From assembly GCA_018001015.1 (NCBI GenBank), contig JAGNIV010000025.1, positions 1 through 52,378 of the forward strand: 52,378 nt of DNA, in the 5' to 3' direction. This DNA comes from Phenylobacterium sp. (GTDB taxonomy: Bacteria; Pseudomonadota; Alphaproteobacteria; Caulobacterales; Caulobacteraceae). Both the position numbers and the translations under genes were made by a program. Every line of letters starts with the position of its first letter. Positions within the stretch are counted from its first letter, which is position 1. The notes below the pieces were generated by a model. The model did not search any database, had not been told where the DNA came from, and saw nothing but the letters and a program-made list of their open reading frames with translations. Shown here one piece after another: positions 42,861-47,882 of this stretch.

Positions 42861-42917
42861 CTAGTTGCGCGCGGTGTCCACCAGCTTGGTGATCCAGGGC
42901 ATCATGGCGCGCAGGCG
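42861..42917 (-). other. att-like site 1: duplicated ilvC 3' end (outermost left)
   Basis: 57 bp identical to the end of ilvC (47820-47882), including the TAG stop, except for a 6-bp deletion that removes two codons (the ilvC end [12 protein letters not shown] becomes [10 protein letters not shown]). Identity ends abruptly at GCAGGCG. Next to it on the right is the mobile-unit end GGGCAAGGAAATCAAGG. Confidence 0.85.
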
Positions 42918-43080
42918 GGCAAGGAAATCAAGGGGTTATCAGCCGGGTCAAGACCCGCGTGTAGCAGCGACGTGTAGCAGCCGTAGCGGCCCTCCGGAAG
43001 GGGTACGCTACTCAAAGTCTGTAGACCTAAAGGCGTCAAGCCCGACACGTTGAGGCCGACGAACCAAGGATCGCTGCAAC

Positions 43081-43933
43081 GTGCCACGGCTGGAAAGGGA
43101 ACTCAGAAAGCCCAGTGCGCACATCACGAAGACCCTGGCGTCTAAACGGGCTCTCTCTCGCTGGGCTTCCGTTGCGTACCCGGTCAAAGGTGGTGAAGGA
43201 GAAGGTCTGCGAAGTTCTTGGTTACCCGGTGCCAAAATCGTTTCAGAAAACACAGCCTCGATTTCCGGGTCAGTTCTTCGACACCTACACGCAGAAATCG
43301 AACAACCTGCAAGTTTGGAACGAAGAGCTTTCAGCTGTTCGTCGCTACGTCCTCATCCGTATTTCCGACGCGGACCTTGTTACCCGCGTAAAGGTGGTCA
43401 CTGGCGATGCGCTGGCGGCCCTCGACACGACGGGCACGCTGACCAGCAAGTACCAGGCACGGTGCATACCGGGCGTCGAAGCCAGTGAGCTTATTACCGA
43501 CCACGACACCAAGACCTTAGCTGGCTTCACCTCGCCTGGCGTCGAACTGCGCTCCATCGGCACGCCAGTGATGCACCCTAGAGCCGGGCAACTGCTGCCT
43601 ATTGCTGAGGTTTACGACCGCCTGAAGCCGCTGCTCGGACAAAGCTTCAAGGATGCGGGGTTCGACCAAGAACGAAACAGAGGGGCAGCCCTACACCGGT
43701 TGGTGTGCCAGTCTCTTGGCTACGCCACCTATCAGGACGACGGACAGTTCCCTGACGTTCGCCATCAACTGATAGAGGTCAAGCTGCAGACCGCGCCGAC
43801 CATCGACCTCGGGTTGGTATTGCCGAGCAGCACAGAGCCGTTAGACGTGCCGATGATCGAGGGCGCTCAGATACGACACTGTGACGTGCGCTATGCTGTC
43901 TTCTATGAGCTTGTTCTGTGGAGCCTTTCCCAT
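43081..43933 (+). pseudogene. Disrupted PD-(D/E)XK restriction endonuclease gene
   Basis: Two overlapping frames together read as one type II restriction endonuclease-like protein. Frame 1 from GTG 43081 gives LERELRKPSAHITKTLASKR and ALSRWASVAYP. Near 43180 the similarity shifts to frame 2, RTRSKVVKEKVCEVLGYPVP and FDTYTQKSNNLQVWNEELS. The nuclease motif is FPDVRHQLIEVKLQTAPTID (PD...EVK). After CDVRYAVFY (about 43905) the frame runs into other sequence and finally antisense of the integrase stub, so the 3' end is lost. A separate frame MPKTKDQFVLAALEQ begins at 43934, perhaps the start of a following gene cut by the same deletion. No methyltransferase partner is present. The frame-2 part is open from 43115 to 44089. 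Confidence 0.55.
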
Positions 43934-44018
43934 GCCAAAAACGAAAGATCAGTTTGTACTCGCCGCGCTCGAACAGGCGCACTTGTCGCCGCCTCAGTCA
44001 GTACGGAAGCGGGCGACG

Positions 44019-44205
44019 CTCGCAATGCAGCGAACTCGTCGTCTATGTCTGACCACACCTTTGGCAGGAGTGCGCGGGCGACCTTGTAGTCCGAGGTGCC
44101 CAGCGCGCGGTTCACCTCCGCACTGCCCCAGAGTGTCACAAGGTCAGCGGGAACACGGCGGCGCAAATACCACCGCGCTCCGCGCTGTTTTAATCCGGTC
44201 AACAT
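44019..44205 (-). pseudogene. Tyrosine recombinase N-terminal stub (DUF6538), unit A
   Basis: From ATG 44205: MLTGLKQRGARWYLRRRVPA, then WGSAEVNRALGTSDYKVARA and WSDIDDEFAALRA. This is the DUF6538 N-terminal module of phage-type integrases that target gene ends. The core-binding and catalytic Arg/His/Tyr domains are missing; the frame runs into unrelated sequence antisense to the restriction gene remnant. The stub lies next to the right end of unit A, where an integrase gene is expected. Confidence 0.7.
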
Positions 44206-44295
44206 GTCCTTCTCCAACGTGCGCTGTGTAGCAGTCACGCGGGACATTCCGACCGTCTAACCCCTTGAGTTTCCTAGTTCTCCAGTCTTTTCAGA

Positions 44296-44358
44296 CTAGT
44301 TGCGCGCGGTGTCCACCAGCTTGTTCTTGGTGATCCAGGGCATCATGGCGCGCAGGCG
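44296..44358 (-). other. att-like site 2: duplicated ilvC 3' end (between units)
   Basis: 63 bp identical to the ilvC end at 47820-47882, including the 6 bp that site 1 lacks. Left of it is the right end of unit A (CTAGTTCTCCAGTCTTTTCAGA, shared with unit B's right end); right of it is GGGCAAGGAAATCAATGGG, as after site 1. Confidence 0.88.
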
Positions 44359-44440
44359 GGCAAGGAAATCAATGGGTTAACAGCCGGGTCATTTCCCGTG
44401 TGTAGCACCCGTGTGTAGCATTTCTTTGCAAGAGTGGAAG

Positions 44441-46233: not shown

Positions 46234-46642
46234 CGAACGGCCCACCTTAACCATTTAGAAACATTATTTCGCATCTACGGCAATAGGTACAGATTGTCGC
46301 ACTGAAGAACCTGTGAATAACCGCTCCCTGCGCGGCGGCCGCCAAGATCGATTGAGAGAGTAGATGTTCGCATTTTTCGAACTCTCTTCCGGTTCCATTT
46401 CCTCGTACTGGATGGGCGCGACTGATGGTTCACATTATGTGCGCGCCAAGTCTTGCCTTGGAGTGGCATAAAGAAGTCTTTATGTGCTTCTTGGCGGCCT
46501 GAAACGAGCCCACTGATGGGAGAGGGGCCCTCTGAATGGACACCTAGACGGTTCCCCCATGGGGTGGCACCCACCGTGCAGGTTAGGGCTATGGCGTCAG
46601 CAAGATCGCTCGTGCAGCGCGATAGGGCCTGCGGAACAGCCG
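46234..46642. other. Unit B region with no recognised gene
   Basis: About 400 bp between the DUF2188 gene and the recombinase control region. Short frames (for example 46275-46574 minus and 46453-46656 plus) lack recognisable domains and good ribosome-binding sites. It may contain promoters for the leftward CD-NTase operon; none stands out. Confidence 0.5.
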
Positions 46643-46742
46643 CTCATAAGTTGTAAGTTTTGCGCCATAGCTCACAACATACTTGACGCCCCATATGAGC
46701 CAGGATTATGAGCTAGGGAAATTGCAACCCTAACTTATGAGC
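46643..46742 (+). promoter_or_regulatory. Repeat-bearing control/recombination site upstream of the serine recombinase
   Basis: Three direct copies of TATGAGC (46694, 46707, 46736), each followed by YAGR (CAGG, TAGG, CAGA), and one inverted CTCATAAG (46643) lie within 100 bp ending 6 nt before the recombinase ATG. First and second copies are 13 bp apart. Such arrays upstream of resolvase genes are commonly res sites and operators. No clear Shine-Dalgarno is seen. Confidence 0.6.
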
Positions 46743-46747
46743 CAGAC

Positions 46748-47326
46748 ATGCGGATCGCTTACTATCGCGTCTCCACAGGGGACCAGAGCATTGAGGCTCA
46801 GCGCCACGCCCTCGGAACCGATTTCGATAAGGAGTTCACCGACGAAGGGGTGAGCGGCGGCATTATGGCTGCAGACCGTCCCGGCTTCGCCAAGCTCTTA
46901 GAGCAGGTCCGCAAGGGCGATACGGTATGCGTCTATGCGGTGGACCGTCTGGGTCGGGATGCGCTCGACGTGCAGAGCACGGTGCGTCGCCTGATCGACA
47001 GGGGCGTCACGGTAGACATTCATGGGCTGGGGCAGATCGGTCGCGGGGTGGGCGAAATCATCCTCGCTGTGCTAGCGCAGGTCGCCGACATGGAGCGCCA
47101 AAAGATCAGGGAGCGGACGGAGGGAGGCCGTGCCACAGCGAGGGCGGCCCTACAGGCCACTGGAAAAACCCACAGAGGGAAAGACAGCCTTGGCCGCCCA
47201 AAGGCGCAGGACGGCGCGGCAGTCGCCGCGTGGCGGGATCAGAATAAGGCGAGCATCAGACGCACTGCCCAGCAGTTCGGCGTTTCCGAGGCGACGGTGA
47301 AACGGTATTGCGCAGCAGCCTCCTGA
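46748..47326 (+). CDS. Serine recombinase (resolvase/invertase family)
   Basis: A 192-residue recombinase with the catalytic Ser in IAYYRVSTGDQSIEAQR (Ser9), Arg residues in VDRLGRDALDVQSTVRRLID, the long helix ILAVLAQVADMERQKIRERT and a C-terminal HTH (IRRTAQQFGVSEATVKRYCA). The length fits small resolvases such as Tn3-type TnpR. It may resolve or regulate unit B, but no transposase is nearby. The C-terminal half keeps all conserved parts, so it appears intact. Confidence 0.88.
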   Translation: MRIAYYRVSTGDQSIEAQRHALGTDFDKEFTDEGVSGGIMAADRPGFAKLLEQVRKGDTVCVYAVDRLGRDALDVQSTVRRLIDRGVTVDIHGLGQIGRGVGEIILAVLAQVADMERQKIRERTEGGRATARAALQATGKTHRGKDSLGRPKAQDGAAVAAWRDQNKASIRRTAQQFGVSEATVKRYCAAAS

Positions 47327-47581
47327 AGCCCTGCAGGGAGGCTCTAGGCAAGTCCTGGTAGGCATCTGGCCTTGCCACCGGCACGCCCTCAGTGAGCCCC
47401 TGAGCGCGCCCACGGCGACTTCGGCTAAGTCACTGTATTATAAGTCCTTTGATTTGATACCATCATGCACAGGGAAACTTTCGCTCACTGCCCGACCTGA
47501 CACCCAGGTCGAGGCGCGAGATTGTGCTCCAATATGACGCGCGAGAGCGCACGACCCGTGGGCGCAACCACGACGATCCGT

Positions 47582-47731
47582 TACTCTTGGCAGAAGCCTA
47601 CGGGCAACCCGGTAGTCTGAAGTTCCAAGGGCGCGAGTTACCTCCGCTGACCCCCAGGCCTCTATGTATTGAGCGGGAACGCGGCGGCGCAAAAACCACC
47701 GCGCTCCACGCTGTTTGAGGCCGTTGAACAT
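47582..47731 (-). pseudogene. Tyrosine recombinase N-terminal stub (DUF6538), unit B
   Basis: From ATG 47731: MFNGLKQRGARWFLRRRVPA, WGSAEVTRALGTSDYRVARR, LLPRV, closely similar to the stub in unit A. After about 50 residues the frame continues as unrelated, low-complexity Arg/Ala/Ser-rich sequence (DRRGCAHGSCALARH), so the rest of the integrase is gone. It is at the same distance from the att site as the unit A stub. Confidence 0.7.
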
Positions 47732-47819
47732 GTCGTTCTCCGAGTGGGCTGTGTAGCAGCCACGCGGGACATATCGACGTCTAACCCCTTGAGTTTCCTA
47801 GTTCTCCAGTCTTTTCAGA

Positions 47820-47882
47820 CTAGTTGCGCGCGGTGTCCACCAGCTTGTTCTTGGTGATCCAGGGCATCATGGCGCGCAGGCG
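47820..47882 (-). other. att-like site 3: ilvC 3' end in the intact gene
   Basis: The 63 bp that recur at 44296-44358 and, minus 6 bp, at 42861-42917. To the right the gene continues (GCGCGCCGACTTCC on the plus strand); to the left lies the right end of unit B. Integration within this segment rebuilds the ilvC terminus without damaging the enzyme. Confidence 0.88.

Follow-up and report, generated by a model that had tools for sequence, protein, structure and literature searches.

We asked how the 3′ end of ilvC, the ketol-acid reductoisomerase gene, came to be present three times within about 5 kb of a Phenylobacterium chromosome, and what lies between the copies. The stretch of DNA analysed here (the window) comprises 52,378 nucleotides, positions 1 to 52,378 of contig JAGNIV010000025.1 in assembly GCA_018001015.1; it is contig C21 of a 4.0-Mb draft genome in 77 contigs (G000 below, where Gnnn denotes genomes and Lnnn loci). 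The copies delimit two units, unit 1 (1.4 kb, outer) and unit 2 (3.5 kb, ilvC-proximal). In the same order, each unit contains a copy of the target end, an arm motif about 62 bp further on, the 5′ end of a DUF6538 integrase gene, cargo, a pair of arm motifs and the next copy. The remainder of the integrase is missing from both units, and the corresponding sites of the nearest relatives are empty. Very probably, two related and originally integrase-driven elements entered the ilvC 3′ end one after the other and then lost their integrases.

Repeated ends of ilvC and the units between them

The features that define the array are the following (position in the window, strand, description).

about 42808..42845, minus: original ilvC terminator hairpin, called from its fold, now about 5 kb from ilvC
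42859..42917, minus: core copy A, the outer repeat, 59 bp, 6 bp shorter than copies B and C
42958..42979, minus: two int-distal arm-type sites of unit 1, TGCTACACG
43903..44247, minus: integrase remnant of unit 1, a 114-aa frame with DUF6538 (PF20172, E-value 9e-19)
44225..44233, minus: int-proximal arm-type site of unit 1, TGCTACACA, 63 bp behind the copied stop
44294..44358, minus: core copy B, 65 bp, at the junction of units 2 and 1, identical to C
44399..44420, minus: two int-distal arm-type sites of unit 2, TGCTACACA
47438..47731, minus: integrase remnant of unit 2, a DUF6538 tyrosine integrase that gives way to unrelated sequence after about 50 codons (PF20172, 8e-11)
47750..47758, minus: int-proximal arm-type site of unit 2, TGCTACACA, 62 bp behind the ilvC stop
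47818..47882, minus: core copy C, 65 bp, the real ilvC end, at the junction of ilvC and unit 2
47820..48839, minus: ilvC, 339 aa, intact (Pfam KARI_N and KARI_C; residues 1-339 aligned in the nearest relatives), its 3′ end the putative integration target

The original prediction, made from the window alone, had described a threefold direct repeat of the ilvC end that bounds units of 1.4 and 3.5 kb with matching outer ends, and the comparison of the copies agrees with this. All three lie in direct orientation, with start-to-start spacings of 1435 and 3524, and they cover the last ∼65 bp of the gene (59 in copy A). A 30-mer is present three times in 52 kb, which excludes chance as the source of the repeats. 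The int-distal ends of the two units are 89% identical over 95 nt (part of the core included), and the int-proximal ends are 99% identical over 108 nt (core included) and 87-89% identical beyond that. The 6 bp absent from core A fall inside a 14-bp block, delimited by eye, to which the two ends of a related element in another genome (G036, see below) confine the crossover.

The same prediction held that ilvC itself is intact and that its terminator was left ∼5 kb away, and both points were confirmed. The encoded protein is 97.6-99.1% identical to those of the four nearest Phenylobacterium genomes (G008, G067, G009 and G065). The terminator hairpin, which lies outside the array, has a folding energy of −29.3 kcal/mol (z −4.9), and a similar hairpin folds directly behind ilvC in G067. 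A consensus terminator scan did not list the hairpin of the window, we think because its stem pairing continues into the T-run; the terminator call is thus based on the fold and on the comparison with empty sites. Such sites, for which the original prediction had proposed to look, are present in all four nearest genomes, where ilvC is followed by a terminator-like hairpin and then by the next gene. In each of the four, the aspartyl-protease-like gene that lies on the outer side of the array in the window follows the hairpin; the outer-side dioxygenase gene is present in three of them and as a short piece in the fourth.

Integrase remnants and the parent element family

Close behind the copied stop codon, both units open with the 5′ end of a DUF6538 (PF20172) gene. 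When the long proteins of nine elements were used in tblastn, the units matched only the N-terminal part of the integrases at E-values below 0.01. The Phage_integrase profile PF00589, which does detect the integrase of G036 (1.7e-07), had five matches in the window's own genome and none of them on the window's contig. The remnants end at different codons, about 50 in unit 2 and about 80-110 in unit 1. Over the 50 codons that they share we counted 21.5 silent and 21.5 replacement differences; the proportion of differing silent sites (pS 0.54) exceeds that of replacement sites (pN 0.20), suggesting that the remnants descend from two integrases that diverged under selection. A tree, in which G057 has a very long branch, pairs the two remnants (100/98) but leaves G036 apart from them; the use of ilvC may therefore have arisen more than once. 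Elsewhere in the own genome, no relative of the G036 integrase was found at E≤1e-60 among the best three of seven candidates, and PF20172 exceeded its cut-off in three short fragments, two of which are the unit remnants. The third (contig C26, 144802-144927) is degraded and has an internal stop.

What did the complete elements look like? In G036, which belongs to the same genus, a full tyrosine integrase of 503 aa, in which both the DUF6538 and the Phage_integrase domain are present, lies at the same ilvC position and heads a 7.1-kb element closed by another copy of the ilvC end. Relatives of this integrase at E≤1e-60 were present in 16 of 390 Caulobacteraceae genomes, G036 included. At ten of the 15 loci other than G036, ARAGORN places a tRNA gene next to the integrase, and at three more (L089, L091 and L102) the integrase lies beside a tRNA 3′ fragment only, as expected behind another inserted element; the remaining two are L101, where the gene starts near a contig end, and L096. 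Integrases accompanied by no more than a tRNA 3′ fragment were seen at L143, L145 and L156, suggesting tandem elements at tRNA-Ser and tRNA-Ala.

In all 11 integrase-bearing relatives whose two ends could be located (G177, G077, G067, G224, G057, G180, G209, G259, G036, G155 and G206; G259 was added from a search with the resolvase), the 7-mer TGYTACA is found on one or the other strand no more than 100 bp from each end. Its density in these elements is 13.2 per kb in the end 100 bp versus 0.056 per kb inside. Six of the 16 genomes (G160, G021, G359, G371, G280 and G199) were left unscored, the second end being not found or not sought. We take these words to be the arm-type sites of a two-site tyrosine integrase, borrowing the name from other integrases. 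Both window units have one arm word 62-63 bp behind the stop and two at the far end, and on the plus strand from 42851 to 47900 the six arm-type sites are the only places where the word [TC]GTGTAGCA is present. An inverted GAAA(C)TCAAGGGGTTA-type word was noticed by eye beside the cores of both units. Other DUF6538 integrases of the genus bear other words at these places, so TGYTACA marks a sub-family. Both units carry TGYTACA near both ends and stand beside a copy of the target gene end, and in the place of a complete tyrosine integrase next to the target they have N-terminal fragments only. They are derivatives of the DUF6538-integrase family rather than working members of it. DUF6538 itself may be the arm-binding domain; an AlphaFold model of the G036 integrase (three sequences) was unusable, with a mean predicted local distance difference test score of 44. 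The original prediction had contained neither the arm motif as a mark of the parent family nor the absence of the integrase catalytic domain from both units, nor the ruined state of unit 1, whose restriction enzyme is truncated.

Nine of nine elements examined have a resolvase beside the integrase, and these resolvases fall into two sub-families; one of the nine, G259, was found through its resolvase. We scanned the cargo of eight elements, the genes covered being a part of the total. Clear defence-type cargo was found in four (PDC-S60 in G224, a TIR protein in G180, a methylase and a helicase in G209 and an HsdR-like protein in G036) and weaker matches of this type in two (a trypsin-like protein in G067, and G259), while the cargo of G177 and G077 gave nothing better than E 0.007. 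Pfam searches with eight proteins of the G036 element returned no relaxase or type IV secretion system match; in the other elements it was mainly cargo that was scanned. No capsid, packaging or replication match was obtained with PHROGs at E≤0.01 for the element proteins scanned, and the nearest phage-like matches, an Rz-like spanin (E 0.0046, G067) and a minor-head protein (E 0.044, G036), were taken as chance. In G036, small genes lie between integrase and resolvase (L025:2576-4521), two of which are also present in G077; they had no Pfam match over the cut-off and no PHROGs match at E≤0.01, and are possibly a transfer or replication module.

Integrase truncation is also seen outside the window. 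DUF6538 gave 38 matches in 30 of the 101 genomes of the genus, and the frame is under 200 aa in 11 of the 38 (three of these belong to the window's genome, and two or more lie at the edge of a contig). The clearest second case is a 2.3-kb unit in G056 (L183, contig C95) with an 18-bp repeat and an integrase match only over residues 4-164; its arm motifs lie 75 and 73 bp from the cores, the proximal one on the other strand, and its two further genes had no Pfam or PADLOC match. In G067 (L185, contig C8) a 0.84-kb unit at tRNA-Arg(acg) has a 21-bp repeat and a truncated DUF6538 integrase of 219 aa, and G026 has a similar unit of 3.0 kb. One or both arm motifs of the TGYTACA type are absent from the units of G067 and G026.

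Cargo of the two units

The genes and regions between the ends of the units are as follows.

43139..43918, plus: unit 1, remnant of a type II restriction endonuclease that is truncated at either end (PDLC03565, 2e-111, profile 55-318 of 359)
44441..45022, minus: unit 2, SLATT_4 protein, two-transmembrane (2TM) effector (SLATT_4, 5.5e-63, profile 1-165 of 165; PADLOC 2TM effector)
45003..45884, minus: unit 2, CD-NTase (SMODS) cyclase, 293 aa, full length (PDLC00786, 2.5e-133 over 2-292 of 293; Pfam SMODS)
45958..46254, minus: unit 2, DUF2188 protein, 98 aa, PADLOC candidate PDC-S16
46640..46747, no strand: unit 2, putative res region, in which inverted motifs of the TCATAAGTT type recur upstream of the resolvase, found by eye
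46748..47326, plus: unit 2, serine resolvase, 192 aa, intact (Pfam Resolvase, 1.4e-29)

The original prediction of a defence gene pair as cargo is supported by the full-length CD-NTase and SLATT_4 genes of unit 2. By eye, the nucleotidyltransferase motif GSxGRD...DLD can be read in the cyclase. The pair thus combines a CD-NTase in which this motif is intact with an adjacent effector gene, the arrangement by which a cyclic-oligonucleotide-based anti-phage signalling system (CBASS) is recognised. In a search of solved structures by sequence, the only matches at E≤0.001 were nucleotidyltransferases (6p8u, 6p82 and 6p8j). By comparison with a homologous pair in G275, SLATT_4 likely starts at a TTG that overlaps the cyclase stop. 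The cyclases of unit 2 and G275 differ with a pN of 0.24, and their silent sites are saturated. The G275 pair (L170:9894-11700) lies directly behind tRNA-Ser(TGA), and the 5′ half of another tRNA-Ser is found just upstream. The pair of unit 2 probably still protects its host against phages.

The unit 2 resolvase is 85% identical to that of the ilvC element in G036 (pS 0.62, pN 0.09). Motifs of the TCATAAGTT type are also present upstream of the G036 resolvase, and the DNA match to G036 and other genomes reaches into the putative res region. Viral contigs were searched as well: they contained no match to the pattern of ilvC end and arm, none to the G036 integrase and no relative of the cyclase, and four of them had relatives of the resolvase. 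A DUF2188 gene 85% identical to that of unit 2 occurs in G047 (contig C12, L174:8018-8257); the contig also bears tRNA-Arg(cct) and a distant resolvase.

In unit 1, the endonuclease fragment is the only other recognised gene, and no resolvase match was found there. The fragment corresponds to codons 91-349 of a longer homologue in G322, whose frame has 393 codons and neighbours a convergent gene for a 609-aa methylase-like protein, in which an NPPY methylase motif was read by eye. This protein had no convincing match in either unit (best E 0.15). Unit 1 looks dead and would be locked in place.

Use of the ilvC end and origin of the array

Is the ilvC end a recurrent hotspot for small defence elements, as had been proposed? 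We matched ilvC in 98 of the 101 genomes of the genus and fetched 80 other Phenylobacterium loci, 66 of them with at least 5 kb downstream. Among these 66, a single locus (G036) has such an element and another (G047) a different kind of insert. The reading of the array as integrative elements that stand in tandem at the 3′ end of ilvC and bring defence cargo is supported, as are empty sites in relatives and, in another species (G036), a different element between ilvC repeats; the frequency implied by a hotspot is not supported. The ilvC end appears to be used by different elements, but seldom. A 36-nt scan found a second ilvC end in G036 (30/36) and G047 (36/36), while the other scanned loci reached at most 23 (L074 was without downstream sequence). 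A pattern scan of the 390 family genomes, in which the pattern matched only 98, found multiple ilvC ends solely in G000, G036 and G047. In a collection of 84,980 species, the ilvC end followed by the arm motif occurred at five places, one of them an element (that of G036), with a pattern that allows zero mismatches and that other arm motifs would escape. The other four (L108-L111) are ilvC ends without an integrase match, and their motif was taken as chance; in two of them it adjoins a tRNA-like start. The two ilvC ends of G384, on two contigs, reflect a contig overlap of about 139 bp, the split ilvC of G024 reflects a run of N, and the ilvC of G053 is in two overlapping pieces in different frames. 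The G047 insert (L063:1723-4124) is 2.3 kb long, is headed by a 212-bp copy of the ilvC end (98%) and encodes a DUF2335 protein; the repeat on its flanks, of 88 bp, corresponds to the 3′ end of a transporter-like gene nearby; no integrase and no arm motif was found in it. A literature search, judged by titles, returned no paper on ilvC or ketol-acid reductoisomerase as an integrase or island site, none joining DUF6538 with an integrase and none on Caulobacter integrative elements with defence, resolvase and tRNA.

How might the array have formed? The ancestral integrase would have recognised the TGCTACAC sites by binding to them and made its crossover within the final codons of ilvC, and every insertion would have handed ilvC an equivalent end and stop. 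Unit 1 would be the earlier arrival and the more decayed of the two, with a truncated restriction enzyme, a methylase that would have been lost and an outer core that would have been shortened. Unit 2 would have arrived later at the ilvC-proximal site, as a deletion derivative that kept the resolvase and a two-gene CBASS-type operon. On its own, neither unit would be mobile. Because unit 2 has identical cores and an arm motif at each end, a matching integrase that came into the cell could excise it, and the array would act like a chain of cis-mobilizable islands frozen at their site.

Several observations weigh against this account. The C-terminal stretches of three integrases have weak tblastn matches (E 0.014, 0.051 and 1.7) that lie together at 45970-46107, antisense to the DUF2188 gene; PF00589 finds nothing there, and we therefore took them as chance. 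The own genome has five other tyrosine-recombinase-type domains, and the tree offers no support for uniting the G036 and window integrases. The crossover block is taken from G036, whose integrase N-terminus is 46.5-49% identical to those of the window and which may be an imperfect guide. A DNA search of the 390 Caulobacteraceae genomes, in which the best two candidates per genome were scored, returned no further copy of either unit among the matches listed, which leaves movement of truncated units without support. The assembly is a draft, although a single contig spans the whole array. Finally, the order of arrival is a proposed one, the defence activity is predicted from gene families, and any excision, circular form or transfer of the units is hypothetical.

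The units could instead be an active non-autonomous form, defence cassettes pared down to arms, core and cargo and moved in trans by a related integrase, much like miniature inverted-repeat transposable elements. Both units have kept the arms at both ends and the int 5′ end beside the proximal arm, with differing cut points, unit 2 has two identical cores, the genus is rich in short DUF6538 frames and G056 repeats the design with other cargo. However, no truncated unit was met twice among the matches listed for the 390 genomes, unit 1 has a shortened core and truncated cargo, and recent decay would also leave ends intact; we consider this form unlikely. It is scarcely credible that the ilvC end was duplicated by homologous recombination or by an assembly error, with unrelated genes caught in between. 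G047 does have a duplicated ilvC end without an integrase, and the apparent double end of G384 is an assembly matter, but in the window the family arm motif lies near both ends of both units, the integrase 5′ end has the family orientation in both, and one contig covers them. Unit 2 might have been inserted by its serine resolvase, since no other intact recombinase gene was recognised in the array. Yet this resolvase lies inside the element and has the layout of a small resolvase, resolvases of two sub-families have a complete tyrosine integrase beside them in all nine relatives examined (with G259 found through its resolvase), and unit 1 has the same ends with no resolvase match, which makes it a most improbable inserter. 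The successive entry of two integrase-driven elements that later lost their integrases accounts for the array best. Beyond the window, we put forward as a speculation, and a rather doubtful one, that Caulobacteraceae harbour a family of 4-10 kb islands (DUF6538 integrase, resolvase and often one defence cassette) that repeatedly shed the integrase, leaving trans-mobilizable two-armed mini-cassettes that stack at tRNA genes and, in Phenylobacterium, at ilvC.

Finally, we compared the array with known systems. A two-gene system of cyclase and SLATT protein, side by side and matched by the PADLOC Cyclase and 2TM Effector models, is like CBASS with a 2TM (SLATT) effector, whereas a DUF2188 gene precedes the pair of unit 2, whose activity is predicted. 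Phage satellites (P4-like elements, phage-inducible chromosomal islands and PICMI) bear integrases and can carry defence genes; unlike in these, none of the scanned element proteins matched a capsid, packaging or replication family at E≤0.01.

The closest parallel is with cis-mobilizable elements (CIMEs) of Streptococcus and others, which two reports describe as integrase-less deletion derivatives that have kept attL and attR and stand in tandem at 3′ ends of protein genes (PMC7563491, PMC5704250). In these reports, the CIME targets of S. salivarius are rpmG, rpsI, fda and rplL, and the most decayed element lies farthest from the gene (PMC7563491, PMC5704250). The array resembles such accretion in being an integrase-less tandem bounded by putative attachment (att) sites, with the most decayed unit farthest from ilvC. 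Both units have putative att sites at both ends and no integration gene, the resolvase not being counted as one, and a Pfam scan of their open reading frames showed no transfer gene. CIMEs descend from conjugative or mobilizable elements, whereas no conjugation family was found among those proteins of the parent family that were scanned; unlike CIME arrays, the array has no intact element, carries defence cargo and uses a different target. The array would thus work like a CIME array, and we do not claim that it is one. The ssrA islands of Dehalococcoides likewise follow one another in tandem, several at a time and delimited by gene-end copies; an integration module is missing from 15 of these islands (PMC3146451). 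They share with the window the tandem layout, the gene-end copies as bounds and the loss of the integration module, whereas their described cargo is reductive dehalogenase genes and their target, ssrA, is not a protein gene. The array may be seen as a variation on CIME-type arrays already known, from which it differs in its apparently non-conjugative parents, its defence cargo and its target.

The locus illustrates how integrase loss can strand a defence operon in the chromosome, with its putative att and arm sites left for a helper. It also yields a rule by which integrase-less islands may be recognised: a gene-end copy, an arm motif 40-85 bp away at each end and the start of a DUF6538 gene. 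Searches for integrase genes would overlook islands that this rule catches.

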